Part shown: positions 2,625 to 30,667 of the stretch, in pieces | How positions within the stretch are numbered: position 1 is the stretch's first letter | Layout of the letters: every line of letters begins with the position of its first letter | Virus record (IMG/VR): IMGVR_UViG_3300046090_000160 | Coordinates: 1-30,667 of that record | DNA from: a virus | Direction: 5' to 3' (one strand) | DNA: 30,667 nt | Made by a program: the position numbers and the translations under genes | Notes under the pieces: model-generated | What the model saw: only the letters and a program-made list of their open reading frames with translations | What the model was told of the DNA's origin: nothing | Databases searched by the model: none

Positions 2625-2853
2625 TCTGTTTAGTGCAAGGTGGTGGTCAAATGCTTACAAGATATTTGCTGGTAATTTTGTCATTCTTTGTATGGTTTTG
2701 ATAGTGTTTTTTGGCTGGGATGATATCCCTATGAGCAATGTGCTGGCTGGGTGTGCTTTTATTTCTGCGGGTAATTTCTTTAGTATTGACGCTAGCATTT
2801 TGGTTAAAAACGCTAATGCTCACAAGGTTGTGAATAATGATAACACTGAGTAA
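2617..2853 (+). CDS. Holin-like protein, two membrane spans
   Basis: A 78-residue protein with two hydrophobic helices, about residues 19-34 and 40-57, joined by a short turn, and a polar C-terminal tail. Size and topology fit class II holins, which make the inner-membrane lesion that releases the lysin. It overlaps the putative lysin upstream and the inner-membrane spanin downstream, completing a compact lysis operon. Primary sequence is not recognised as any named holin. Confidence 0.65.
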   Translation: MGDLFSARWWSNAYKIFAGNFVILCMVLIVFFGWDDIPMSNVLAGCAFISAGNFFSIDASILVKNANAHKVVNNDNTE

Positions 2854-3106
2854 AATAAAGGGTTGGCTTGGTGCTGGAGCTGCACTTGCTCTAGCTGTAA
2901 TGGCTTATGTTTTTGGTGCTAGAGGGCAAAAACTAAAGACAGCAGAAAAGGAACTGAAAACAAGGGACAAATCCGATGAGCTGGCTCTGGCTAAAAAAGA
3001 AGGGGCAAGGGTTATAGATGATGAGAATAATAGGCTTAAAAGCGAAGTTAAACAGTCTACTGTTGTTGATGGTCTTAACAAGCTGTTCAACACTAAAGAT
3101 AAGTGA
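2837..3106 (+). CDS. Inner-membrane spanin, Rz-like
   Basis: An 89-residue protein: an N-terminal membrane anchor at about residues 10-27 (Gly/Ala/Leu-rich), then a long Lys/Glu-rich coiled coil in the periplasm. This is the architecture of i-spanins, which pair with an outer-membrane lipoprotein to fuse the two membranes at the end of lysis. The gene's last 89 bases are overlapped in another frame by the lipoprotein gene at 3018, as in lambda Rz/Rz1. The ATG overlaps the end of the holin-like gene. No sequence identity to Rz is claimed; the call rests on architecture and nesting. Confidence 0.75.
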   Translation: MITLSKIKGWLGAGAALALAVMAYVFGARGQKLKTAEKELKTRDKSDELALAKKEGARVIDDENNRLKSEVKQSTVVDGLNKLFNTKDK

Positions 3107-3254
3107 AAGCTGTGAAAAACATGCCCCACCTATCAAACCGCCTATAGAATGGCAAGAAATTGATGGTAGGGCAAGTATTACGTTAGAAGATGCCACGTCG
3201 CTGTTGCGCTATCTTTACGATGTTGACGCATATATATCTAAAACTCAGCTATAA
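3018..3254 (+). CDS. Outer-membrane spanin lipoprotein, Rz1-like
   Basis: A 78-residue protein (ATG 3018, or 3021, with AAGGG upstream) read in a different frame from the overlapping spanin gene. Residues 11-20 are a hydrophobic signal core and end in the lipobox LTSC with Cys23, giving a mature lipoprotein of 56 residues with a Pro-containing segment (PPIKPP) just after the Cys. These are hallmarks of Rz1-type o-spanins. It extends 148 bases beyond the inner-membrane partner, so it is only partly embedded. Its end overlaps the convergent gene at 3249 by 6 bases. The pair points to a diderm host. Confidence 0.8.
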   Translation: MMRIIGLKAKLNSLLLLMVLTSCSTLKISESCEKHAPPIKPPIEWQEIDGRASITLEDATSLLRYLYDVDAYISKTQL

Positions 3255-4102: not shown

Positions 4103-4207
4103 TTAAAACTTAATCATCATAGCCATTATGATGAACACAATCAGTGCTATCACTTTAAAAGTTTGTGTAAAGATTATCAGGTTGTTTGCCCATGGTTTTT
4201 TACCCAT
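4103..4207 (-). CDS. 34-residue hydrophobic peptide
   Basis: A leftward frame from ATG 4207 encoding 34 residues, most of which form one membrane helix rich in Ile, Val and Met. It begins inside the neighbouring 28-residue frame, in another frame, and no clear Shine-Dalgarno precedes it, so translation would depend on coupling. It fills most of the gap between 4087 and 4254, which otherwise holds no gene. Existence is plausible but not proven. Confidence 0.4.
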   Translation of the reverse strand: MGKKPWANNLIIFTQTFKVIALIVFIIMAMMIKF

Positions 4208-4263
4208 ATCAGTAAGGCTATCACAACCAGTGATGATAAATACGCTGATAGGGCTATTTCCAT
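4177..4263 (-). CDS. 28-residue hydrophobic peptide, coupled to regulator
   Basis: A leftward frame from ATG 4263 whose first 10 bases overlap the end of the regulator gene (stop at 4254-4256), an arrangement that favours re-initiation. Residues about 3-21 form a membrane helix. Together with the nested 34-residue peptide it makes two overlapping one-span peptides in a row. No family is recognised. Confidence 0.4.
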   Translation of the reverse strand: MEIALSAYLSSLVVIALLIWVKNHGQTT

Positions 4264-4667
4264 AGCTTTAGCGCCACTTCTTGGTCGGAATGGTGTTGAG
4301 ACACGTCCAACCCTTTTTGTGTTAAAAAAATGATGTTTTTTTGCCCTTCTTTTCTGATGTAAAACAATTCCTCTCTCATGCGTAGGTTTAAAGCTGAAAA
4401 TCTTTTGAGTGTTCGATGAATTGAGTCAAGTGTTATATCGATGTTAAGATTACATGATGATTCAACGGCTTTTTTGACAGCGTAAAAGCTTTTCATGCTT
4501 TTGGTTTTGTAACTCATGACTGACCCATCATGGTCAAAATAGCACAATTCGCAGTCAGTGCCAAATTTTTCTATCACCATGGCACAAACAAGAGCCATAG
4601 CGCGGTTGTAGGTTTTTTTCACTGGGGTGGTTTTTTCTGCTGTGTGATTTTTTTTTGTGTTAGTCAT
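4254..4667 (-). CDS. Putative winged-helix regulator, leftward operon
   Basis: A 137-residue leftward protein. The start at ATG 4667 is chosen because AAGGAG (4680-4675) precedes it by 7 bases; the upstream extension to 4715 lies inside the promoter. The N-terminal 20 residues are Lys/Thr-rich. The C-terminal half contains a helical segment with LDSIHRTLKRFSALNL, then strands ending in FLTQKGL, which resembles a winged helix-turn-helix with its wing. As the first gene of the operon divergent from the early region, it is the best candidate for a transcriptional regulator of that region. Family not recognised; DNA binding is inferred. Confidence 0.55.
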   Translation of the reverse strand: MTNTKKNHTAEKTTPVKKTYNRAMALVCAMVIEKFGTDCELCYFDHDGSVMSYKTKSMKSFYAVKKAVESSCNLNIDITLDSIHRTLKRFSALNLRMREELFYIRKEGQKNIIFLTQKGLDVSQHHSDQEVALKLWK

Positions 4668-4686: not shown

Positions 4687-4715
4687 AGAATAAACAGTTT
4701 TCGAAACAGCGTCAA
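4687..4715 (-). promoter_or_regulatory. Leftward sigma70-type promoter
   Basis: On the minus strand, -35 TTGACG (4715-4710) and -10 TATTCT (4692-4687) are separated by 17 bases. The transcript would begin near 4680, directly at the AAGGAG of the regulator gene, giving a leader of only about a dozen bases. Confidence 0.7.
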
Positions 4716-4720
4716 GAGGG

Positions 4721-4797
4721 TTTTCTTGTTTTTCTTTGTTTTTCTTTTTTTTTGGTTCTTTTTTTTTCTTTTTATTTCTTTTTATTCTTTTCTTATG
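4721..4797. promoter_or_regulatory. Phased T-tract (A-tract) region upstream of leftward promoter
   Basis: About 77 bases are almost all T on the plus strand, broken by single C residues at 4725, 4734, 4744, 4758, 4768, 4778 and 4787, i.e. mostly at 9-10 base steps. Tracts phased with the helical repeat bend DNA. They lie immediately upstream of the leftward -35 box, where they could act as an UP element or curved activator. The remaining stretch to 4873 holds no recognisable gene. Confidence 0.6.
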
Positions 4798-4873
4798 ATT
4801 AGTTATATGTAAGAGGTGATTTATTGTGTTTTTGTTTGCTTAAGTTTAGTATAAAAAAACGTGCATAAACTGC

Positions 4874-4902
4874 TTGACTTTTATTATTTGTGATTGTATG
4901 TT
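4874..4902 (+). promoter_or_regulatory. Rightward early promoter P1
   Basis: -35 TTGACT (4874-4879), 17-base spacer, -10 TATGTT (4897-4902). The spacer contains TTTGTGAT, also found in the promoters at 6694 and 10817, and the whole element is near-identical to the promoter at 5408. It diverges from the leftward promoter at 4715 and starts the early rightward transcript. Confidence 0.65.
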
Positions 4903-4917
4903 TACAGCATAGGAGAT

Positions 4918-4983
4918 ATGAAAAAAGATAAAAACAACTGCAATTTCTATGGTTTTTGGTGTTTAAAATGGTTTTATGCATAG
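4918..4983 (+). CDS. 21-residue leader-like peptide
   Basis: A short frame from ATG 4918 to TAG 4983, preceded by AGGAG with very short spacing (2 bases). It would start about nine bases after the predicted transcript start of P1. The peptide is Lys/Asn-rich then aromatic. It is too short for a homology call; it could be a leader peptide or chance. Confidence 0.3.
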   Translation: MKKDKNNCNFYGFWCLKWFYA

Positions 4984-5359: not shown

Positions 5360-5407
5360 CAGAATAGATTAGTTTGCACAAATAATAGTTATTTTTTCAC
5401 CAAATGC

Positions 5408-5436
5408 TTTACTTTTATTATTAGTGGTATTATTTT
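5408..5436 (+). promoter_or_regulatory. Rightward early promoter P2 (copy of P1)
   Basis: -35 TTTACT (5408-5413), 17-base spacer, -10 TATTTT (5431-5436). The 12 bases starting ACTTTTATTATT are shared with P1, and both are followed by an ACAG and a purine-rich ribosome site, indicating a duplicated promoter-leader cassette. Bases 5360-5407 hold nothing else recognised. Confidence 0.55.
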
Positions 5437-5458
5437 TATTACAGAGGATAAAAACAAA

Positions 5459-5683
5459 ATGACAAAAGAAGAGCTAAAAAAGATGACAAGAGATGAGCTG
5501 GTAATAGAGTGTGCTAGGTGCAAAGACTTAGCCACAGAGGCGTCAAATATATTAAGAAGGGGTGATTATGGTGATATAGCTGATTATCGTAGTAAATTCG
5601 ATAAATGGGTGGAGTTTGAGGAGAACTGGATAGCGGTTGAAACAACTATCAAAGAGCATGATGAGGAGACAAAAAGTGAATAA
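5459..5683 (+). CDS. Hypothetical early protein
   Basis: A 74-residue acidic, helical protein from ATG 5459. It opens with a Lys/Glu-rich stretch, KEELKKMTRDEL, and resembles the start of the small protein at 7225 (TRDELKK), hinting at a shared small-protein family in this early region. It has no membrane segment. A weak AGAGG lies 11 bases upstream, just downstream of promoter P2. Its end overlaps the next gene by 8 bases. Function unknown. Confidence 0.65.
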   Translation: MTKEELKKMTRDELVIECARCKDLATEASNILRRGDYGDIADYRSKFDKWVEFEENWIAVETTIKEHDEETKSE

Positions 5684-5945
5684 AAATACAACATTTACAT
5701 CAAATTATTGGATAGGACGCTGTAGAGAAAACATTATAATGGGTGATACAAACTGTAGCGATACCTATAAAAACTTGACCAAGGCAATGAACAAGGAGAT
5801 GACAGTGCAAGAAAAAAAGAAAAGACGCAGGGTGTTAAGCAAACTTGTTACATTGTTTAACAGCAAAAGATCTGATGTGTTTCAAAAAACAGTGTTTGCA
5901 TATGAGTTAAATAATATAATAACAGATAGTTATAGGGACGAATAA
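5676..5945 (+). CDS. Hypothetical basic early protein
   Basis: An 89-residue protein from GTG 5676, chosen because GAGGAG lies seven bases upstream and the start overlaps the preceding stop. The central part is strongly basic (KKKRRR), suggesting nucleic-acid contact. It is followed directly by the ERF-type annealing protein. Family not recognised. Confidence 0.65.
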   Translation: MNKNTTFTSNYWIGRCRENIIMGDTNCSDTYKNLTKAMNKEMTVQEKKKRRRVLSKLVTLFNSKRSDVFQKTVFAYELNNIITDSYRDE

Positions 5946-5946
5946 A

Positions 5947-6687
5947 ATGAAAAATGATGACAATAGAAATATTGAATTATTAAATAAATTCTATATAGTT
6001 TTATATGCACTTAAAAATCCGTCTATGGATAGTACGGGGCAAGTCGGTTCAAGAAAATATAAATATACTGATTTGTTTAGTTTAGTAAACGATATTAAAA
6101 AAGTTCTTAAAGAACATGGTTTGGCTTTTTATCAGCCTATATATTCTTGTGATGGAAAAATAGGTATTAGAACAATTGTTTTTGATAATAACGGTGATTC
6201 TATGGTTATAGGTGAAATGGATGTTGATGTGTCTTTGCTTATAGAGCAGGCGAATAAAGCTAATGCCAAGGGGTCTGTATCACAAGAGATAGGGGTGTGG
6301 ATAACCTATGCTAGACGTTATTCTTTGCTGTCAGGGCTTGGCTTGGTTGGCGACGATGATACCGATGGTGTGAACAAGCAAGGTGAACAGCCGCAACACA
6401 AGCACCCAAAATACGATGAGTTTTACGCAAGAATGTGTGCTATGCCATATATCGATGGTGATGATACGGATAGTAAGAATGGGGTTAAAAGCAATGCTAT
6501 AAAGCTCATTCTTAAGAAGCTAGATATGCTTAGAGGTGAGGAGCTTTTATCAGCGTGGCTGTTCATAATGGAGAACTCTTATCACGGTGGCGACCAGCTG
6601 GATTATGACTACATTATGGGTCTTTTAAGGGATAATAACGCACCCATGATGATTGAGGTGATGAAAGAAATAAAAAACAGAAAATAG
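5947..6687 (+). CDS. erf: ERF-family single-strand annealing protein
   Basis: A 246-residue protein. Residues 1-140 match the ERF pattern: an N-terminal helix, YKYTDLFSLVNDIKKVLKEHGL, a central beta region, and the signature YARRYSLLSGLGLVGDDDTDG. ERF proteins form rings on single-stranded phage DNA and pair complementary strands in recombination-dependent repair and replication. The C-terminal third is divergent, with an acidic segment. SSB (10373), an HNH nuclease (7964) and replication proteins lie downstream, a normal recombination-replication module. Start at ATG 5947 follows the previous gene by one base; its ribosome site (GGGAC) is weak, consistent with coupling. Confidence 0.85.
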   Translation: MKNDDNRNIELLNKFYIVLYALKNPSMDSTGQVGSRKYKYTDLFSLVNDIKKVLKEHGLAFYQPIYSCDGKIGIRTIVFDNNGDSMVIGEMDVDVSLLIEQANKANAKGSVSQEIGVWITYARRYSLLSGLGLVGDDDTDGVNKQGEQPQHKHPKYDEFYARMCAMPYIDGDDTDSKNGVKSNAIKLILKKLDMLRGEELLSAWLFIMENSYHGGDQLDYDYIMGLLRDNNAPMMIEVMKEIKNRK

Positions 6688-6693
6688 CGCAAA

Positions 6694-6737
6694 ACTATCA
6701 CAAGGGTATTGACAATTATCTTTTGTGATAGTACTAT
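6694..6737 (+). promoter_or_regulatory. Promoter with palindromic operator (copy A)
   Basis: A perfect 10-bp inverted repeat, ACTATCACAA (6694-6703) and TTGTGATAGT (6723-6732), brackets -35 TTGACA (6709-6714). The -10 is TACTAT (6732-6737) after a 17-base spacer. The element, including the leader GGACAGAAAA just before the start codon, is repeated at 10817-10883. A regulator bound to the arms would straddle the -35 box. Confidence 0.85.
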
Positions 6738-6757
6738 TATGGTAGGTGGACAGAAAA

Positions 6758-7198
6758 GTGGATGAAAGTGTTGTGGTTTACAGAGATATAAAAAAGACTC
6801 ATCTTTTAGAAGTTCTTGATATGATTAATGGGCACAAGAAAAACTATAATAGAATCATGCATATGTATTGTGTATGGTTAAATGATAAAAATGTTGAAGA
6901 TTTTTCTTTTAAAGATGGGCTGTTTGTGGACAGGTTTTATTATTACAGTGCACTTCATAAAAGAGCATGTGTACTTGGTAGAGATATTAAAAGTATTTAT
7001 TCTAATATTTATGATGTGTATAGTGGGCGAGATGGGTCTAAAATTGATAAATGTAAAAAGATTCAAGACAGATGGGTAAAAACGGCCGGCGAATGTGAAG
7101 ACATTATTAGCTGTATGATGAGAGAGTATAAGCATTTTAATTCTTATTTTGAAAAACATCCCAGGGATGATATCCTTGAACAAATGTTTAGAAATTAA
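6758..7198 (+). CDS. Hypothetical early protein
   Basis: A 146-residue protein. GTG 6758 is chosen over the upstream GTG 6746 because AGGTGG stands 8 bases before it and because the leader aligns base for base with the genes at 7539 and 10883, which start at this point. It is Tyr/Lys-rich and probably all-helical, with scattered Cys, and has no membrane segment. It is the only gene but one before the palindrome at 7403. Family not recognised. Confidence 0.65.
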   Translation: MDESVVVYRDIKKTHLLEVLDMINGHKKNYNRIMHMYCVWLNDKNVEDFSFKDGLFVDRFYYYSALHKRACVLGRDIKSIYSNIYDVYSGRDGSKIDKCKKIQDRWVKTAGECEDIISCMMREYKHFNSYFEKHPRDDILEQMFRN

Positions 7199-7224
7199 AT
7201 AAAGAAGAAATGGGAGTGAATTAA

Positions 7225-7386
7225 ATGACACGTGATGAGTTAAAAAAAGTGGTTTGCGTGGCACAGAAAGACTTGTGTCATGCTAGGGATGTGATATTCG
7301 AACTAGAGGGAAAAAGCAAAACCTACGAAATGCTCTGCGATTATTTTTGGTTGCTTGATGAGCTGGAGTATAAGCTTTCTAAGTGA
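7225..7386 (+). CDS. 53-residue helical early protein
   Basis: ATG 7225 is preceded by GGGAG with 8 bases of spacing, and the frame ends at TGA 7386. The peptide is helical and acidic with three Cys, beginning TRDELKK, similar to part of the protein at 5459. It is transcribed with the gene at 6758. No family is recognised. Confidence 0.6.
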   Translation: MTRDELKKVVCVAQKDLCHARDVIFELEGKSKTYEMLCDYFWLLDELEYKLSK

Positions 7387-7402
7387 TTGTAGGATAAAAA
7401 AA

Positions 7403-7455
7403 GACTACCATAAAATATCATCAAGGGAGTGTGGATACTTTTATTTATGGTAGTC
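7403..7455 (+). promoter_or_regulatory. 12-bp inverted repeat, diverged operator
   Basis: GACTACCATAAA (7403-7414) and TTTATGGTAGTC (7444-7455) form perfect 12-bp arms. The core ACTACCATA resembles ACTATCACA of the promoters at 6694 and 10817, but the inner gap is about 12 bases longer, roughly one extra helical turn. A GTGGATA stands where TTGACA should be, and no good -10 follows at the usual distance. It may be an operator whose promoter is weak or activator-dependent. Confidence 0.55.
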
Positions 7456-7460
7456 AGGCG

Positions 7461-7488
7461 TGAGAATTATATCTAAAAGGAGTTCTCA
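7461..7488 (+). other. Hairpin enclosing a Shine-Dalgarno-like site without a start codon
   Basis: TGAGAA (7461-7466) pairs with TTCTCA (7483-7488); the loop contains AAGGAG (7477-7482). No ATG, GTG or TTG stands at a usable distance; the true start with its own AGTGGAGG is at 7539. It may be a relic of a lost gene start or a regulatory leader. Confidence 0.35.
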
Positions 7489-7538
7489 TAAGCATAGTAA
7501 ACTTGTTTGTATTTTGTGTCAAGTGGAGGACAGAAAAA

Positions 7539-7967
7539 ATGTTAGATTTAAAGTTTGATGATTTGGTTTTTACCGATGGGCGTTGTTTTCTTAAACAGCG
7601 GTGGTTTGCAAGGAGAGAGGAAGGAAAGGTTGTTGAATGGGAGAAGTTTATATGCATAAGTAATGTTAAAGAGAGTTTTGGCTCACATGGTGCTAGCATT
7701 GAGGAGGTTAGCTGTAGCGATGGTTATGAGAGCGTTCGTTTTGAATGTGGCAGGAATGTTGAGCTTTTTTTAGATAATGAGCAAGCAATATTTGAACAAA
7801 TAACAGAGAAAGAATGGATTGATGAGACCATTTTACATTATGACATTGATTTAGTGATTGGTAGAAGTGCGATAATTAATCGTTTGATAGAAGAGCGCGC
7901 AACTGAAATGCTGGAAGCATTGCGTGAGGAGGCATACGAGTGTAGGGAAAGGGATAGTTCGTTTTGA
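7539..7967 (+). CDS. Hypothetical acidic early protein
   Basis: A 142-residue protein. ATG 7539 is chosen because GGAGG lies upstream and the leader GGACAGAAAA matches those of the genes at 6758 and 10883; TTG 7503 has no such support. The N-terminal 70 residues look beta-rich, the C-terminal half helical and Glu-rich. It overlaps the HNH gene by 4 bases, so the two are probably coupled. Function unknown. Confidence 0.65.
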   Translation: MLDLKFDDLVFTDGRCFLKQRWFARREEGKVVEWEKFICISNVKESFGSHGASIEEVSCSDGYESVRFECGRNVELFLDNEQAIFEQITEKEWIDETILHYDIDLVIGRSAIINRLIEERATEMLEALREEAYECRERDSSF

Positions 7968-8788
7968 AACTTATTAATCCAAAAATAGATATACAAGACA
8001 ACCTAACAATTGATTTAACCCCACAAGAGGCTAAACAGTTGATTGCCATGAAAGAAAAGGCGATGGGCAAAGATGGCTCATTAAAGCGCAATATTTTAAT
8101 CGATGTGTATTTGGGTGTTAATAGTAAGACTGCACGGCAACGTGATACTGTGCATGCCTTGGTTAGGCTTATATGGCAATGTGAGAACCCAAAGGAGGAG
8201 GTGGGGCGTGAGTGTCCAACCAAGCATGAACACAATGATTTATATGATGAGCTTAAAAATGCGTATGGGTTTACAAGGCAAACGGTTGTTAAGTTTAACG
8301 GTGTTGATGTGCAACGTGATGTGGTTATAGGGCTTAGTGAGATGAATTCTAGCCAAGCGTCTATATTTATACACAGAATATTTGAGCATGCAGCTCATAT
8401 TACTGGTAGACCTGAATATGTTGATAGGGGTTTGTCTTCTATGTGGTGTGCTGTGAGAGAATATGCGGGAAGCATGAGGTCTGACCCGCTGGATTATGAA
8501 GATGATGGGATAACTACTATTAGTGAGCATGACTTTAGGGCGTTACACAAACAGTCGCATGCAAGTGGAAAAACTGGGGTGTTACACCTTCATCACATTA
8601 TGAGCAGGGGGTCGTCAGGTATAGCAACACATAAAAGTTGGAACTGGGTGATGTTGACGCATGATGAACATGCAATTGTTCATAGCAGAGGTAATGATGA
8701 GTTTTTGTCATTATATCCATCGCTGATAGGTAGATTTAAGCAGGCTAAGAAAAAAACACAAGAAATAGAGGCGGGTAAAAATGGGTAA
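7964..8788 (+). CDS. HNH endonuclease, phage recombination type
   Basis: A 274-residue protein starting at TTG 7964, inside the previous stop. The C-terminal domain has the HNH pattern: LHLHHI with H210/H211, N227 in WNWVML, then H236 and H240 ahead of SRGNDEF. The Cys pairs that often brace HNH folds are missing. The N-terminal 200 residues, with LSEMNSSQASIFIHRIFEHAA, resemble the fused domain of phage nucleases (HNHc_6/NinB-like) that act beside annealing proteins and SSB, rather than a homing endonuclease. It sits between the ERF gene and the replication initiator, fitting a role in processing recombination intermediates. Confidence 0.7.
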   Translation: MKLINPKIDIQDNLTIDLTPQEAKQLIAMKEKAMGKDGSLKRNILIDVYLGVNSKTARQRDTVHALVRLIWQCENPKEEVGRECPTKHEHNDLYDELKNAYGFTRQTVVKFNGVDVQRDVVIGLSEMNSSQASIFIHRIFEHAAHITGRPEYVDRGLSSMWCAVREYAGSMRSDPLDYEDDGITTISEHDFRALHKQSHASGKTGVLHLHHIMSRGSSGIATHKSWNWVMLTHDEHAIVHSRGNDEFLSLYPSLIGRFKQAKKKTQEIEAGKNG

Positions 8789-9404
8789 AAATTATGAGGG
8801 TTTAGCAAAATATGATTTTTTGGTTGCTGATATAGATAAAAAACTAAGAAAATCAACAAGTGGTAGGGCGGTGCATGCGTTTTTTGTTTATTTAGTGGAG
8901 AATGATGGTTTTGTTACAACCAGCGATGTTATGGAGGAGTTTGATGTTGGTATAGCTACTGTTTACAAATGGAGAAGTTATTTGATAAAAGAAGGTCTTG
9001 TTAAAGCTAAGATTGGCACGCCGTTGACAGTTGATGATAAAAAACAAATAAGCACAGAAAAGCCAAGTGAGGTGGCTGTTCAAGAAAAGCCAAGTGATGA
9101 AGCCATGAAGATGGCTAACTTATTCTTGCACCATAAAAGACAATTTGATTCAGGGTTTGAACTGACTAGAACAAATGCTTTTTTGACAGCATTTGCTAAA
9201 GTTGTTGACAAAATAAACACAGGAAAGAAGCGTTCTTTTGAGGATATTGAGTGTTGTATATTAAAACTTTTGGGTGATAAATTTCATGGGGCAAGGTTTG
9301 TAAGCGGTAAATATCTTGAAAAATATTTTAATGAGGGTATGGGGCTTAAAGAGCGGATAGGTACAATGGAAGCTGTTGGTGATGATTATGGCTGTAGATA
9401 TTGA
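8781..9404 (+). CDS. Replication initiator with winged helix-turn-helix
   Basis: A 207-residue protein from ATG 8781, overlapping the HNH gene by 8 bases. Residues about 24-72 form a winged helix (FVTTSDVMEEFDVGIATVYKWRSYLIKEGLV), residues 85-110 a Pro/Glu linker and residues 110-200 a helical C-terminal domain. This two-domain layout, followed directly by a DnaC-like loader, is that of phage replisome organisers (lambda O, phage 18 DnaD-like), which bind the origin and recruit the helicase loader. The linker is encoded by two 15-bp direct repeats, as in lambda O, which marks the probable origin. Exact family not identified. Confidence 0.7.
   Translation: MGKNYEGLAKYDFLVADIDKKLRKSTSGRAVHAFFVYLVENDGFVTTSDVMEEFDVGIATVYKWRSYLIKEGLVKAKIGTPLTVDDKKQISTEKPSEVAVQEKPSDEAMKMANLFLHHKRQFDSGFELTRTNAFLTAFAKVVDKINTGKKRSFEDIECCILKLLGDKFHGARFVSGKYLEKYFNEGMGLKERIGTMEAVGDDYGCRY
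9056..9097 (+). repeat. Iteron-like direct repeats, candidate replication origin
   Basis: AGAAAAGCCAAGTGA occurs at 9056-9070 and again at 9083-9097, a 27-bp period, inside the linker of the initiator gene. An AT-rich run (about 9036-9052) precedes it. Initiator-encoded iterons inside their own gene are known from lambda-type phages; function here is inferred, and two copies is a small number. Confidence 0.45.
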
Positions 9405-10113
9405 TGATGGGTTATTTTTGCCTCAAAAAACAGAGGAGATGTGTGCTGTGTGTGGTACTAAAACACCTCACATGATATGGAAAAAAACAGCATATTGCGT
9501 GCCATGCGGCGACAAGAATGCCATGAATGAAGAGAAGCTGGAGGTTGATAGAAAGATAAAGCGTGATACAGCTCATTTAATCGATGTTACTGGTATCGAT
9601 ATTGATGTGATAAACAAGGCTAAGAAAGAAGCAAAAGAACCGGTTAAAATATATGGGGAAAGAATATGTGAGATGATAGATGGGGGTGTAAATCTTATGC
9701 TTGCTGGTAGTGTAGGCACAGGAAAGACCACATTAGCTGTAGCTTTAGCAATAAAAGCTTCTAGCGTGGGTTATTCAGTGGAATGTGTTAAGGCTCATGA
9801 CATGATTAAAGACGTAAGGGCTTACATGTGGCAGGATTTGTTGATTGTTGATGAGTTGCACACGGCATTAAGGATGTATGGTGATAAACCTGATGATGAT
9901 GAAAAAAGCTATCTTTATCGGCTGGTTGAACACCGTAATAACAAGAAGCTTTCTACCATATATATAACAAATCAAACAAATAAAGTTATGAATGACATGT
10001 TTGGTTTTGCGATAATGGATAGAATAAGAAACAGATGTATTATGGTTTCTATGACTGGCGAGAGCCACAGAAAAGAATATAATATATACAAAGATTTAGG
10101 CAAGGAGTGTTAA
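9388..10113 (+). CDS. dnaC: DnaC-like helicase loader ATPase
   Basis: A 241-residue protein (ATG 9388; ATG 9382 is also possible). The N-terminal zinc ribbon has Cys pairs at 19/22 and 37/40. The AAA+ core shows Walker A GSVGTGKTT (107-115) and Walker B LLIVDE (151-156), followed by NQTN near the sensor position. DnaC/IstB-type ATPases deliver the replicative helicase to the origin; here it would work with the initiator encoded just upstream. No helicase is seen in this genome, so it probably loads the host one. It overlaps the initiator gene end by 17 bases. Confidence 0.85.
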   Translation: MAVDIDDGLFLPQKTEEMCAVCGTKTPHMIWKKTAYCVPCGDKNAMNEEKLEVDRKIKRDTAHLIDVTGIDIDVINKAKKEAKEPVKIYGERICEMIDGGVNLMLAGSVGTGKTTLAVALAIKASSVGYSVECVKAHDMIKDVRAYMWQDLLIVDELHTALRMYGDKPDDDEKSYLYRLVEHRNNKKLSTIYITNQTNKVMNDMFGFAIMDRIRNRCIMVSMTGESHRKEYNIYKDLGKEC

Positions 10114-10114
10114 C

Positions 10115-10372
10115 ATGGTAGAGATAGATGGAATTAAGTTCGAGGTTTATTCAAAAGCCGGAGTTGAAGGACTTAAAGTTGTCAAGATAATTTTTGACAA
10201 GGGCACGGTAATTGATATAGATATCGATGGGGGTTATGTTGGTGATGTGTATGCCGATGTCGGTTATGTGCATGGCAATGTCGACAGGGTAAGAGGCAGT
10301 GTCGGTATAGTAAGAGGCAATGTCGATACAGTATATGGTATGGTTGGTGTGGTAAGAGGAGAGCTTAAATAA
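10115..10372 (+). CDS. Heptapeptide-repeat beta protein
   Basis: An 85-residue protein from ATG 10115 with AAGGAG upstream. Residues 1-41 are an ordinary N-terminal part; residues 42-84 are six near-perfect heptads of the form V-x-x-V-x-G-x, with Val at 42, 45, 49, 52, 56, 59 and so on to 80. Regular Val/Gly heptads suggest a beta-roll or bactofilin-like solenoid that may self-assemble. The corresponding DNA is a 21-base repeat. It lies between the helicase loader and SSB, so it may act at the replisome, but no function is known to me. Confidence 0.75.
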   Translation: MVEIDGIKFEVYSKAGVEGLKVVKIIFDKGTVIDIDIDGGYVGDVYADVGYVHGNVDRVRGSVGIVRGNVDTVYGMVGVVRGELK

Positions 10373-10780
10373 ATGAACGATTTACATATTTCAGGCAATG
10401 TTGCCTATGATTCTGAGTTAAAAACAACCAGTAGTGGTGGATTTTTAAAGTTCACCATAATGCATAATAGAAAAAAGAAGGTTAACAATCAGTGGGTAGA
10501 TGACACGCCGTTTGTAGTTAACTGTGTTATGTGGACAGGAAACCATGAATTAAACGCTAAGAAGCTAAAAAAAGGTGTTAGCGTGGTTATTAGTGGAAGG
10601 ATTGCCCCTAATAAGTACACGCAGAAAGACGGCACGGCGATAGACAGTTTTGTTGTAAACGTTACGTCTTTTGAAATGTTGCACAGCAGGGTTACCAGTG
10701 AGGTGATGAGTAAATTAGATATAAATAAAACAAGCACCGTGAGCACCGCGACTGATTTTGATGATGATATACCTTTTTAG
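10373..10780 (+). CDS. ssb: Single-stranded DNA-binding protein
   Basis: A 135-residue OB-fold protein. The start MNDLHISGNVAYDSEL, the FTIMHNRKKK strand and the C-terminal acidic tip DFDDDIPF are typical of bacterial and phage SSBs; the tail recruits partner proteins. It coats single-stranded DNA in replication and in ERF-driven annealing. Its start follows the heptad-repeat gene directly, with AGAGGAG about ten bases upstream. Confidence 0.92.
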   Translation: MNDLHISGNVAYDSELKTTSSGGFLKFTIMHNRKKKVNNQWVDDTPFVVNCVMWTGNHELNAKKLKKGVSVVISGRIAPNKYTQKDGTAIDSFVVNVTSFEMLHSRVTSEVMSKLDINKTSTVSTATDFDDDIPF

Positions 10781-10816
10781 ATGAATAGCTGGTTTTTTTA
10801 ACAAAATAACACAAAA

Positions 10817-10861
10817 ACTATCACATTAGGTGTTGACAATTATCTCTTGTGATAGTATTAT
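10817..10861 (+). promoter_or_regulatory. Promoter with palindromic operator (copy B)
   Basis: -35 TTGACA (10833-10838), 17-base spacer, -10 TATTAT (10856-10861). The arms ACTATCACA (10817-10825) and TGTGATAGT (10848-10856) are the same as in copy A at 6694. The -35, spacer and leader differ from copy A at only a few positions, showing duplication with conservation of both arms. Confidence 0.85.
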
Positions 10862-10882
10862 TATGGAAAGGGGACAGAAAAA

Positions 10883-11071
10883 ATGGATACATTGGAATGG
10901 TTAAAGAGTGAGTGGAAGCGTGAGGTTGTTAATTATAAAAATGTGATTAAAATGATAGAAGATGGCATAATTGCTGGTGATATAGCACAAAAAACGCTTG
11001 ATATGGCTGGTGAGTTGATGGGGCGTGCGTATTGTGATTATTCAGTTGCTAAGGGCAGTGGTAAGGAGTAG
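10883..11071 (+). CDS. Hypothetical helical protein
   Basis: A 62-residue protein from ATG 10883, behind the GGGGACAGAAAA leader shared with the gene at 6758. It is helical with Trp/Lys-rich N-terminus and no membrane segment. First gene of the second operator-controlled transcript. Family not recognised. Confidence 0.65.
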   Translation: MDTLEWLKSEWKREVVNYKNVIKMIEDGIIAGDIAQKTLDMAGELMGRAYCDYSVAKGSGKE

Positions 11072-11075
11072 TAAA

Positions 11076-11369
11076 ATGGTGTCTCGTGATTTTTGTGATG
11101 TTTATGTCAAGATAGAATTTTTACTTAAAAAATATTCTGGTGTTGACAGTATTAGTGAAGAAGAAAGAATGCATGCAATAGATAAGATGTGTTATCTTAT
11201 GGAGCAACTAAACCATGAAGTATTGTATGAGATGGCGCGGCATGATGTCAATTATAAAATTAAGCGTGGGTTTGTTAGACGCTATAGACTTGGGAGTATA
11301 GTGGACATGATGAGTAAGTGCAAAGAGTTTATAATAGATATGTCTGATATATGGGACACGGATGATTAG
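11076..11369 (+). CDS. Hypothetical helical protein
   Basis: A 97-residue protein from ATG 11076, chosen because AAGGAG lies about seven bases upstream; the open frame extends upstream without a ribosome site. Mostly helical, with a basic KRGFVRRYRLG segment in the C-terminal third. It overlaps the methyltransferase remnant by 8 bases. Function unknown. Confidence 0.65.
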   Translation: MVSRDFCDVYVKIEFLLKKYSGVDSISEEERMHAIDKMCYLMEQLNHEVLYEMARHDVNYKIKRGFVRRYRLGSIVDMMSKCKEFIIDMSDIWDTDD

Positions 11370-12127
11370 GATAATAAACGGCGATTGTATGGACTATTTA
11401 CACACTATCGACGATAACAGCGTTAACTTGGTGATATGCGACCTGCCATATGGCATAACTGATTTGAAATGGGACAAAAAGATAGACCTTGCTGCACTGT
11501 GGTTAGAAATCAAGCGGGTGCTTGTAAATAGAGTTAAGCATGCCGATGGTAGTGTTACAAAGTGTGGGCAAGTGTTGATGTTTTGTCAAGGAAAGTTTAA
11601 GTATGAGATATATAATTCAAATCCACGATGGCATAGGCAAGACTTGGTATGGGTTAAAAACAAAGGCATGGGGTTTTTAAATTGCAATAATAAGCGTTTG
11701 ACACAACATGAGGATATTTTGCTTTTCAGCAGTAATAGTGGTGTGTATAACCCGCAAAAAACACAAAGCAAGCCGTATGTAGTGGATTACAAACCTAACC
11801 ATGCTATTTCTGATTGTTATAAGATAAAAAAAATAGGTGTTCCCTATACCTATGTTAATAGCGGGTATAGGCATCCAACCACGATACTAAAGCACCGTAA
11901 AGAGGAGAAACACGGAGGTTTGAATAAATGAAATCCTACCAGCAAGCCGTTAGCCCTCATAGAGGATTTAATTAAAACTTACAGCAATGAGGGTGATGTG
12001 GTGCTTGACCCTACAGCGGGCGTGTGTTAAGCTTAATAGGGATGTGATTGCAATTGAGCTTGACCCCAAGCAATATGGGGTGTGTATAAAACGTGCGTGT
12101 ATTGACGTGCAGAAAGATTTAATTTAG
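11362..12127 (+). pseudogene. Broken DNA methyltransferase (N6-adenine/N4-cytosine, beta-type order)
   Basis: The N-terminal part (11362-11931, 189 residues) has ICDLPYG, with the catalytic DLPY at residues 27-30, and a target-recognition region. Frame continues after an in-frame TGA (11929-11931) as NPTSKPLALIEDLIKTYS and on to DPTAG, where the SAM-binding loop should read DPxxGxGTTG. Instead the frame stops at 12028-12030, and one base-step over, from 12026, the expected tail resumes (KLNRDVIAIELDPKQYG) to TAG 12127. The order catalytic motif, then SAM motif is that of beta-class enzymes. Two lesions, a stop and a roughly 20-base loss, remove the cofactor site, so the product should be inactive. 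Confidence 0.85.
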
Positions 12128-13006: not shown

Positions 13007-13105
13007 ATGTTTTGTGATACTACAGAGGTGTGTGCACGGATGGAAGAAGAGGATAGAATAAAATCCTGTCTTGAGGCTATTGAAGAGGATAACGAGAACC
13101 TTTAG
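13007..13105 (+). CDS. 32-residue acidic peptide
   Basis: ATG 13007 is preceded by AGGAGG, one of the strongest ribosome sites in the window, one base after the previous stop. The peptide has three Cys and is very acidic (EEEDR, EEDNEN). Downstream the same frame, after TAG, leads on to the gene at 13145. It could be a real small protein or the N-terminal piece of a split gene. Confidence 0.5.
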   Translation: MFCDTTEVCARMEEEDRIKSCLEAIEEDNENL

Positions 13106-24174: not shown

Positions 24175-26944
24175 TAGTGTAGATATTGACGTAAATATCA
24201 ATGTAGATACGGCAAAACAAGAATTTATGCAGTTTAGAGAGTTTTTTAAAAGCTCTTTTGATGGCACAGCCTCTACAGCATCTAAAACAGAGGACGCCGT
24301 TGATGGGGTTAGACAAGCCGTAGAATCGGTATCTAAAGCAACCGAAGAGATGGGTAAGAAATCAGAAAATGGGTTTAAAACAGCTTCTAAGTCATCTAAA
24401 GGCTATACGGCACAGTTAAAAGAGTCTGTTAGTCAATTAACTAAATCTTCCCCCGCACTAAGTTCTCTAGGAAATATATTGAAAAATCCTGTGGCTGGAG
24501 GGTTAGCCATAGCTGCTGCCGCGGTTGCTGTTTTTGTCAAGGCTCTTGCCAAGGCAGAACTTAGAAACGCCGAGCTTGATGAGATGGCTACCAAATTACG
24601 TATTGTAACAGCTGAGGGCGGTGATGCCACGAAAATTATGGACGCTTTGGCTGATTCACCCATATCGGCCGCTAATAATTTTGATGAACTTGTGGCGTCG
24701 GCTACCAAGATGGCAACTTTTGGCGTTTCAGCAGATAATATTATTGTAAGTCTAGAGGCTATAGGCAACATTGCTATGGGTGATTCAGGTAAGCTTGATG
24801 CCCTTTCTACGGCTTTCTCTAAGGTGTCGGCATCTGGTGTGCTAACAACAAGAGAGTTGCGACAAATGGTTGAGAGTGGGTTCAATCCTCTTGCTGAAAT
24901 GAGCCGTACAACGGGTAAATCATTAAATGCCCTACAAAAGGACATGGAGGCTGGCAAAATCACCACAAATATGGTGGCTGAAGCGTTTAGGACAGCGACC
25001 ACAGAGGGTGGGCAATTTAATGATGCTGCTTTAAAACTCAGTTTGACTACAAAAGGGCTAAGTGGCACAATAAAGGACAACACAACCCAAATAAATGCTA
25101 ACTTGTTTGCGCCCATAAGTGCTTTCACCAAGGCTTTCAAGAACGCTTTTGCTGACTTGACTGGGGAGTTTATGAACTTCACTAAACCCCTGCGTGATGT
25201 AACAAATGATGTTTCTAGGCTAGAAAGACTATGGGGCAATGCAGCAGTATCCGTGGAAACTTTTAGTAGGTCTTTGAAAATAATCTATCAGGCACTAAAA
25301 GATTTGGTTAATGCTTTTAAAACACATTCAAATGAGCTTGGTAATAGCGAGAAAAAGACTGACACACTTATTGTTACTAATGCAATATTTCTTACATCTC
25401 TTCAGGCTATTGTTGATATTATAAAGATATTTGGTGCAGGTCTCAATGTTATTACAAGCTCTATGGGTTTGCTTGGTGTTGCTATGGATGGGTCTATTCA
25501 GAGAATTAAAGTGTTAGGTGAACAGTTTGTTATGTTTTTAAAGGGTGATTTTGCTGGTGCAAAAGAAGCTGGCGAGCGGATAGACGATATCGTAAAAAAC
25601 AATTTTGGTTTGATGATTGACGTCATTAAACAAGATATGGAGGTGCTTGCTAAACAGGCTAATAAGCTGTCAACAAATGCTTTGAAGTCATCATATGAAG
25701 CTAACTACGCCGCTCTCACGTCAACTAGTGAAGAAGCTAAGAGGAAGGCACGTCTATCAGGTGAAGATATAGGGCACGGTATCGTTGCTGGTATGAATAG
25801 CGCGGTCAACGAAGGGAATAATATGGCGCATTTGGCTGAGGAAGCACTTCGTTTGTACCAATGGCTGAGTGAAAAAGAGCAAAAGTTACTTGGCACATTG
25901 ATGGCAAATATCACCTCTTTGACAGACAAACAAGTAGATGAGCTTGAAAAATTGATGGATAAAGCCAGAGCCAATTTAGAGCGGTTCGAGTACGCTGATG
26001 CTTTGGCACAAAAAGTATTAAGTATGGCTAAATGGTTGAGTAAAGAAGAGCAAAAGATATTTGAAGAGCTGAACTCAAATATTAAATCTTTGACAGACAA
26101 ACAGGTTTCAGAGCTTGAAAGATTAATGAATAAAGCTGAGGAAAATAAAAAAAACTTTGTGGATAAAGTTATTGATGATATGGTCAACAACATGAATCAA
26201 ACTTTTGATATTGTGGGTCTTATTTTCCAAAATCAGGCGGATGCGGTGAAAAAAGCTAATGAAGACGCGGTTAAATCATTGGAAAAAAGATTTAAGGATG
26301 AGAAAAAGCTCTCAGACAGGCGGTTCAAAGACGCCGAAAATGAACATAAAGAGGGTTTGATATCTCAATATGAGTATGATGTTAAGATGAAAGAGCTTGG
26401 CGATGAAGCAATAGCCATGGAGGAGCAACAGGCGAATGAAAGGGCAGCGTTAGAGCTAGAAAATGCCAAAAAAGCCGATGCTATAGCTGAAAAGCAATTT
26501 AACGCTGACAAGGCTAATTCTTTGGCTCAGGTTGGGGTGAGTACAGGAAAGGCAATTATGGGTATTTGGGCAAGCGGTGCTCCACTTGGCATATTTGGTC
26601 TAGTGTGGGCAATAGCACAAACAGCCATAGTTACTGGTTTGGGTGCAACACAAGCCGCTTTGATAGCGTCTAAGAAGTTTGTGGGTGCATTTGAGATGGG
26701 TGGTGTTATACCACGGCAAGGATTTGCATTGGTTGGTGAAAGGGGACCCGAATTAATCAATGTATCAGGGGGAGAAAGGGTGTTTAATGCGCAAGATACA
26801 CAAAGAATGCTCAATCAAACTAACAATAATCAGCGCAACATAACTAATAACTTCACTATAAATGCAGGGCAAGGGGTTAGTGGTGTTAGCATTGCTAATC
26901 AGGTAAATAAAGAGATTGGTAGAGTTTTAATGGGAAAGGGGTAA
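24164..26944 (+). CDS. Tape measure protein
   Basis: A 926-residue protein, the longest in the genome. Long alpha-helical regions flank a hydrophobic section around residues 105-125 and a tape-measure N-domain (TTRELRQMVESGFNPLAEMSRTTGKSL). Residues about 567-680 are an internal duplication (period 57 residues). C-terminus has GGVIPRQGFALVGERGPELI, typical of the tail-tip end. At about 0.15 nm per residue a tail near 140 nm would be expected. Holin-like membrane penetration at ejection may use the hydrophobic part. Confidence 0.93.
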   Translation: MATDSVDIDVNINVDTAKQEFMQFREFFKSSFDGTASTASKTEDAVDGVRQAVESVSKATEEMGKKSENGFKTASKSSKGYTAQLKESVSQLTKSSPALSSLGNILKNPVAGGLAIAAAAVAVFVKALAKAELRNAELDEMATKLRIVTAEGGDATKIMDALADSPISAANNFDELVASATKMATFGVSADNIIVSLEAIGNIAMGDSGKLDALSTAFSKVSASGVLTTRELRQMVESGFNPLAEMSRTTGKSLNALQKDMEAGKITTNMVAEAFRTATTEGGQFNDAALKLSLTTKGLSGTIKDNTTQINANLFAPISAFTKAFKNAFADLTGEFMNFTKPLRDVTNDVSRLERLWGNAAVSVETFSRSLKIIYQALKDLVNAFKTHSNELGNSEKKTDTLIVTNAIFLTSLQAIVDIIKIFGAGLNVITSSMGLLGVAMDGSIQRIKVLGEQFVMFLKGDFAGAKEAGERIDDIVKNNFGLMIDVIKQDMEVLAKQANKLSTNALKSSYEANYAALTSTSEEAKRKARLSGEDIGHGIVAGMNSAVNEGNNMAHLAEEALRLYQWLSEKEQKLLGTLMANITSLTDKQVDELEKLMDKARANLERFEYADALAQKVLSMAKWLSKEEQKIFEELNSNIKSLTDKQVSELERLMNKAEENKKNFVDKVIDDMVNNMNQTFDIVGLIFQNQADAVKKANEDAVKSLEKRFKDEKKLSDRRFKDAENEHKEGLISQYEYDVKMKELGDEAIAMEEQQANERAALELENAKKADAIAEKQFNADKANSLAQVGVSTGKAIMGIWASGAPLGIFGLVWAIAQTAIVTGLGATQAALIASKKFVGAFEMGGVIPRQGFALVGERGPELINVSGGERVFNAQDTQRMLNQTNNNQRNITNNFTINAGQGVSGVSIANQVNKEIGRVLMGKG
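25843..26132 (+). repeat. Internal duplication in tape measure gene
   Basis: Two copies of a roughly 125-base unit are offset by 171 bases (57 codons), sharing WLS.EEQK..., SLTDKQV.ELE.LM.KA. Duplication or loss of such units changes tail length. Confidence 0.7.
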
Positions 26945-30202: not shown

Positions 30203-30445
30203 ATGAAAAAATGTCCGCTTTTTAGTGAGTTTTTAAAAACACATACAAAGCAGGAAATAAAACAACTAATAGATAGTGTATATATGAAAGACACAGAAAG
30301 AAAAGTACTAAATTACACACATATTGATTGCCTGCACGCAAAAGTAGTGGCTGATTTAATCGGCGTAACAGCCGAATCAACTGTCGCTAACATAAGGGCT
30401 AGAGGACAGTATAAAATTGAGCATTATTTAGTTAATAACAAGTAA
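30203..30445 (+). CDS. Small sigma-region-4-like HTH protein
   Basis: An 80-residue protein from ATG 30203 with AGGAGG upstream. Residues about 33-74 resemble sigma70 region 4: ERKVLNYTHID, then VVADLIGVTAEST as the first helix of an HTH and VANIRARGQYKI as the recognition helix. Could be a regulator of late transcription or a DNA-binding packaging factor. Confidence 0.65.
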   Translation: MKKCPLFSEFLKTHTKQEIKQLIDSVYMKDTERKVLNYTHIDCLHAKVVADLIGVTAESTVANIRARGQYKIEHYLVNNK

Positions 30446-30469: not shown

Positions 30470-30667
30470 ATGCTAGGGATAGCACAAAAAGTAACAGAGG
30501 GTGTTACTTGGGTAAAATATAAGACTAATGAAGTGGTTGCTATAGACAAAGAAGAACACAATTCGGTGCTTGATGAGTTAGAAGCCATGGAGGACAAGCT
30601 TAAGCGTGTTTCAATAAAGCTAAAGCGACGAGAGCGTCAATTAGTGTTGTGTAAAAAAGAGCTAAAA
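30470..30667 (+). CDS. Start of coiled-coil protein that crosses the circular join
   Basis: ATG 30470 lies ten bases after AGGAG (30455-30459); a nearer ATG at 30465 stops after three codons. The first 23 residues are unique to this end; from 30541 the frame repeats the window start and finishes at 223, giving 97 residues in all. The N-terminal 20 residues are mildly hydrophobic, the rest coiled coil. Confidence 0.75.
   Translation, partial: MLGIAQKVTEGVTWVKYKTNEVVAIDKEEHNSVLDELEAMEDKLKRVSIKLKRRERQLVLCKKELK
30541..30667. repeat. Right copy of 127-bp terminal direct repeat
   Basis: Identical to bases 1-127; see the left copy. Supports a closed circular map. Confidence 0.95.

Follow-up and report, generated by a model that had tools for sequence, protein, structure and literature searches.

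What is the role of a promoter that occurs twice in a small viral genome, each time with the arms of an inverted repeat on either side of its −35 box? The question is raised by the IMG/VR record IMGVR_UViG_3300046090_000160, and the window analysed here covers this virus record in full (30,667 bases). A first-pass annotation had described two promoters, termed P1 and P2 in the following, with TTGACA as −35 box, 17-base spacers, arms at gaps of 21 and 22 and a common leader; all of these elements are present on direct reading of the sequence. Our answer is a tentative one: with a probability of about 0.48, P1 and P2 belong to one family of sigma70-type early promoters with a common operator in the spacer, comparable to known phage promoter/operator repeats.

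The P1 promoter-leader cassette (6681–6757, + strand) occupies the space downstream of the ERF gene (stop 6687) and leads to an orphan gene which most plausibly starts at GTG 6758. Its left arm ACTATCACA (6694–6702) lies upstream of the −35 box, and the core promoter TTGACA-N17-TACTAT (6709–6737; −35 at 6709–6714, −10 at 6732–6737, spacer ATTATCTTTTGTGATAG) contains the right arm TGTGATAGT (6724–6732) at a gap of 21. The second copy, P2 (10803–10882, + strand), is found between the SSB gene (stop 10780) and the orphan gene at 10883. Here the same arms (10817–10825 and 10848–10856, gap 22) accompany TTGACA (10833–10838), TATTAT (10856–10861) and the 17-nt spacer ATTATCTCTTGTGATAG. In both copies the last base of the right arm, which otherwise lies within the spacer, is also the first base of the −10 box. 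Homology extends over ~80 bp, with 14 differences in 87 columns of the gapped alignment from 13–14 nt upstream of the left arm to the first codons. Since, in addition, an ungapped core of 53 nt is 89% identical, it is certain from the alignment that P1 and P2 are duplicated copies of one promoter-leader cassette. The stretch from −35 to −10 is kept in 27 of 29 bases, and the 6–7 nt between left arm and −35 box have diverged, with indels beside the arm resulting in the gaps of 21 and 22. With regard to sigma70-type promoters (TTGACA-like and TATAAT-like hexamers 16–18 bp apart, gene downstream), P1 scores 10/12, P2 11/12 and P3, a further promoter described below, 9/12, all with a spacer of 17. 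The whole-genome scan returned 57 sites compared to 57.8 in shuffles; as this is no excess, the promoters are supported by duplication and position and not by consensus alone.

The family is larger than the first-pass annotation had it. The best genome match to the P2 29-mer after P1 (21/29) is P3 at 4874–4902 (+ strand; TTGACT-N17-TATGTT, spacer TTTATTATTTGTGATTG), the first family promoter in the rightward early region. P4 at 5408–5436 (+ strand; TTTACT-N17-TATTTT, spacer TTTATTATTAGTGGTAT), a diverged duplicate of P3, falls below the threshold of the promoter scan and matches the P2 29-mer at 19/29, tied with 2572 (+ strand) and one site on the − strand. Independently, the repeat finder paired 4868–4933 with 5402–5467 (66 nt, 73% identity). 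Spacer identity in register is 13/17 for P1 and P3 and likewise for P3 and P4; a match of 13/17 to the P1 spacer is reached by ~1.5e-4 of positions, with ~0.014 expected among 94 promoter-like sites. The spacer element TTAT-N3-TTGTGATNG is common to P1–P3 and weaker in P4; in P1/P2 it contains a loose dyad ATTATC-N6-GATAGT. The leader of P3/P4 differs from that of P1/P2 and carries TTACAG or ATTACAG. All four promoters are intergenic, on the + strand and in the same register among rightward early/replication genes, and a repeated promoter set as such is well supported. The left arm, absent from P3 and P4, is special to P1/P2; what the whole family shares on this comparison is the spacer element and not the arm pair.

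The weight of the arms themselves was evaluated against shuffled genomes. Exact ACTATCACA/TGTGATAGT arms at 10–34 nt spacing occur in the genome only at P1 and P2, and the reversed control pattern gave 0 hits. Exact 9-bp inverted repeats with a gap of up to 40 are not clearly commoner than by chance (12 overlapping pairs vs 2–14 in shuffles). An arm pair of at least 9 bp around the −35 box of a 10/12 promoter-like site is found at ~0.6% of sites in shuffled genomes; with 17–18 such sites each, ~0.1 is expected per genome. This rarity counts only once because P2 is a copy of P1 and the events are not independent. Sites with at most one mismatch to ACTATCACA number 16 (9.8 expected), and outside called genes only those of P1–P3 and one at 13013 occur. 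Taken together, the arms are suggestive, not established. The sequence TTGTGATAG at 4217–4225 (− strand) was discarded as a further site, lying inside a possible small open reading frame (4177–4263, codons GTT GTG ATA GCC) and not at a promoter. The inverted repeats at 1742–1777 and 7403–7455 were likewise rejected as motif members; their arms resemble ACTATCACAA in 7/10 and 8/10 positions and the register differs. A further promoter-like site (ATGACA-17-TATACT, its −10 box preceded by TG) upstream of a gene possibly starting at 1879 has its −35 box enclosed by an inverted repeat of 13 bp (TTATCAAAGCTTT / AAAGTTTTGATAA, one mismatch; 1742–1788); arms and register are unlike those of P1/P2.

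Relatives that could reveal conservation of the element were sought in several collections; the searches may skip records that are very close to the window, and the absence of close relatives holds for these searches only. No DNA match to 5900–11400 was obtained in phage records. The best matches of the terminase (TerL) among 50,697 phage records are ~40% identical, with the human faecal phages L028–L030 at ~39–41%. With the ERF protein and the protein encoded at 4254–4667 as baits no relatives were found in IMG/VR; SSB matched one locus at 32%, TerL one at 38% and the portal protein four at 28–35%, which are too distant to be used for promoter comparison. In L028–L030, L003 and L024–L026 neither a repeated promoter spacer nor inverted arms (gap 19–22) around a −35 box were detected, and the promoter patterns, including the family spacer pattern, had no match in IMG/VR. 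The first-pass annotation had proposed a motif search with the two arms and their spacing. At a gap of 20–23 this returned two IMG/VR contigs, one inside a helicase-like coding region (L005) and one intergenic without TTGACA (L006), and 17 GTDB contigs, several of them parts of longer hairpins; none of the other contigs scanned carries TTGACA between the arms. Among the literature matches listed, no title or abstract mentions a regulator site with the arm sequences.

In the favoured reading, a small family of sigma70-type cassettes would have been multiplied by duplication and kept in the gaps between rightward early/replication genes: P3 and P4 open the early region, P1 follows the ERF recombinase gene and P2 the SSB gene. 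That host RNA polymerase reads the promoters directly is suggested by the hexamers of P1/P2, which are close to consensus. We infer that the shared spacer element most likely serves as operator, and likewise that a regulator exists, what it is and in which direction it acts. A bound repressor would block or compete with polymerase, and the early genes would be turned down together; in P1/P2 the inverted copy of half the spacer element upstream of the −35 box may add a second contact. Near-consensus hexamers in P1/P2, with the element placed between them, favour repression over activation. The spacer conservation from P1/P2 to P3 speaks for an operator, since sigma70 hardly constrains the spacer sequence. 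Further points in favour are the common register and strand of the four promoters within the small intergenic fraction of the genome (6.3%), the 27 of 29 bases kept from −35 to −10 in P1/P2 next to the diverged stretch beside the left arm, and the leftward gene with weak winged-helix features that neighbours P3. If the element is an operator, the four promoters would form a compact early-gene regulon in which two members with and two without the upstream arm provide built-in comparisons. They would also exemplify how promoter-leader duplication can place additional genes under common control. In wider terms, such regulatory repeats are nothing unusual among phages, and the cassettes belong to the broad known kind of repeated phage promoter/operator cassettes, with a putative regulatory part.

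A number of observations weigh against an operator and its repressor. The left arm is missing in P3/P4, and in P4 little of the TGTGATAG core is left. Between P1 and P2, the identity of the left arm does not significantly exceed the overall conservation: the chance of nine given P1/P2 columns without difference is 0.19, or 0.10 if only columns outside the promoter core are counted, which is compatible with shared descent alone (P 0.10–0.19). Conservation of the element in a relative was not seen in the searches described above, and no regulator was identified. Further, no integrase or known repressor family was recognised among the 40 proteins scanned (PHROGs; 20 also Pfam), which makes a lysogeny-type repressor doubtful. 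A part of these findings would also be explained if the cassettes were duplicated without a dedicated regulator and simply sustain strong early transcription over the length of a long operon, with arms inherited from an ancestral copy in which they stood by chance or as a remnant. Homology over the whole ~80 bp, beyond the arms, and the frequency of 9-bp inverted repeats in this genome fit such an origin, as do the weak left-arm statistics and the armless P3/P4. The scarcity of arm pairs around good −35 boxes in shuffled genomes speaks against it, as does the conservation in P3 of a spacer element that is no part of a sigma70 site, and we regard it as possible, at lower odds than an operator family.

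The first-pass annotation had instead placed one phage-encoded regulator, as a dimer or loop, on both arms across the −35 box of P1/P2. The exact 9-bp arms in both copies and their centre-to-centre distances of 30 and 31 bp, close to three helical turns, are in accordance with this model. Against it speak the varying gap, P3/P4 without an arm pair and the contig scans, which gave no other TTGACA-containing instance; no regulator was identified either, and we consider it unlikely. About as improbable is a variant in which a phage regulator of a new family, possibly the 4254–4667 orphan, bridges the half-sites of P1/P2 and occupies one half-site in P3/P4, with control graded by arm number. Still less credence is given to a host transcription factor that would let the phage promoters follow host physiology. 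Half-sites resemble those of known factors (TGTGA that of CRP, TATCACA the omega-repressor heptad, CTATCA/TGATAG the tetO halves), and a spanin pair described below is indicative of a Gram-negative host; regulators of the CRP type are widespread in such bacteria. A CRP site reads TGTGA-N6-TCACA. The arms run TCACA..TGTGA, i.e. with oppositely oriented half-sites, and neither has a facing half 6 bp away, so that no CRP site is formed; the tetO-like halves are 25–26 bp apart, and in 0 of the 17 GTDB arm-pattern contigs does TTGACA stand between the arms. The heptad consensus of omega (ParB) is WATCACW. Each arm contains one TATCACA without an adjacent heptad, whereas contiguous heptad repeats are needed for parS function at the omega (ParB) sites of pSM19035 (PMC9499535), and an omega site was therefore rejected.

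Comparison with known phage repeats places the cassettes near, and not within, described systems. The promoter and stem-loop cassettes called PeSLs were reportedly described by Arbiol et al. 2010 and Comeau et al. 2014. As cited in PMC4503421, PeSLs of T4-type phages combine a promoter with a terminator-type stem-loop as mobile regulatory cassettes. As far as described there, they share with P1–P4 the promoter-bearing intergenic cassette in several copies between early genes. Unlike in PeSLs, the inverted repeat here surrounds the −35 box, and the scan revealed no terminator-like site at 6680–6760 or 10800–10885, which excludes the cassettes from this group. Cluster K mycobacteriophages carry a 13-bp start-associated sequence (SAS), GGGATAGGAGCCC, at gene starts and, in the extended form (ESAS), upstream 17-bp inverted repeats with a 4–13 bp spacer (PMC3203893); their function is still unproven (PMC12699233). 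Both systems are dispersed among non-structural genes and show imperfect inverted repeats with variable spacer directly ahead of a short conserved start-associated sequence, with an unproven function. In contrast to 11–19 SAS copies per genome and 17-bp arms kept in many relatives (PMC3203893, PMC12699233), there are 2–3 copies of unrelated sequence here, with arms around a clear −35 box and no close relative found. With the leader GGACAGAAAA, arms of 9–10 bp and a gap of 19–22, only the layout is similar, and the cassettes are not cluster K SAS/ESAS members. In L5-type (cluster A) mycobacteriophages, operators/stoperators of 13–14 bp occur as 20–30 asymmetric copies, mostly outside promoters, together with a repressor gene (PMC6550527, PMC9283540). 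Similarities are several short sites oriented with transcription, some of them in early promoters, and the possibility of an asymmetric site, which the element of P3/P4 would also represent. There, the repressor is known and most sites lie off promoters; here all sites are promoter spacers and the repressor was not identified. The 16 ACTATCACA-like sites compared to 9.8 expected, with no match to a repressor family, do not amount to such a system.

By position, the 137-aa orphan protein encoded at 4254–4667 (− strand), divergently transcribed and adjoining P3, is a candidate regulator. Its single-sequence model is of middling confidence (predicted local distance difference test, pLDDT, 66.5; predicted template-modelling score, pTM, 0.63). 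In the fold search of the PDB, winged-helix chains appeared among ranks 2–11 at E 0.4–1.3, which is not significant; no fold match with E ≤ 0.001 and no PHROGs/Pfam family match was found, and the protein is predicted to be at best weakly winged-helix-like. A PDB sequence match, 4hqd, was disregarded, as it is an engineered protein and no stretch passes on its own. The protein encoded at 30203–30445 gave weak matches to regulator/sigma-factor PHROGs (E 0.002) and no usable model (pLDDT 44); neither candidate has a firm identity. Rfam returned no match. Beside this region, at 4687–4795, a leftward promoter-like site TTGACG-17-TATTCT (4715–4687) has a ~75-nt T-rich tract (A-rich on the − strand) just upstream, possibly an extended UP element.

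The leader GGACAGAAAA occurs at exactly three genome positions (6748, 7528 and 10872), each at a gene start. In P1 (6748–6757) and P2 (10872–10881) it precedes the genes at 6758 and 10883; the third (7528–7537, + strand) stands before ATG 7539 without a P1-type promoter. The gene at 7539 thus has the same leader, as noted in the first-pass annotation, and does not share the promoter, with no family match found at 7390–7530. The genes at 6758 and 10883 had no family match in PHROGs/Pfam scans. Upstream of the 7539 gene, a gap of 152 nt contains an inverted repeat GACTACCATAAA..TTTATGGTAGTC at 7403–7455; the RNA 7390–7545 has a better fold than shuffled sequences (z −2.5) and may form a structured leader.

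The genome has a GC content of 38.4% and 6.3% intergenic DNA. Its first and last 127 bases (1–127 and 30541–30667) were found identical by the repeat finder, as expected of a circular assembly or an end-repeated phage genome of ~30.5 kb. Family scans assigned siphophage-type head and tail proteins (portal, minor head, scaffold, major head, tape measure) and the replication/recombination proteins ERF annealing protein, SSB and DnaC-like loader. At 2837–3254 lies an Rz-like spanin (phrog_1026, E 0.0013), overlapped by an Rz1-like lipoprotein frame with an LTSC lipobox, a pair suggestive of a Gram-negative host. At 11362–12127 a DNA methyltransferase gene is broken by an in-frame TAA (11929–11931), directly followed by in-frame NPTSKP..VVLDPTAG, and the remainder (VKLNRDVIAIELDPKQYG) runs on in another frame. 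Inside the tape measure gene, 25831–26136 contains a duplication of 135 nt with 72% identity at a spacing of 171.

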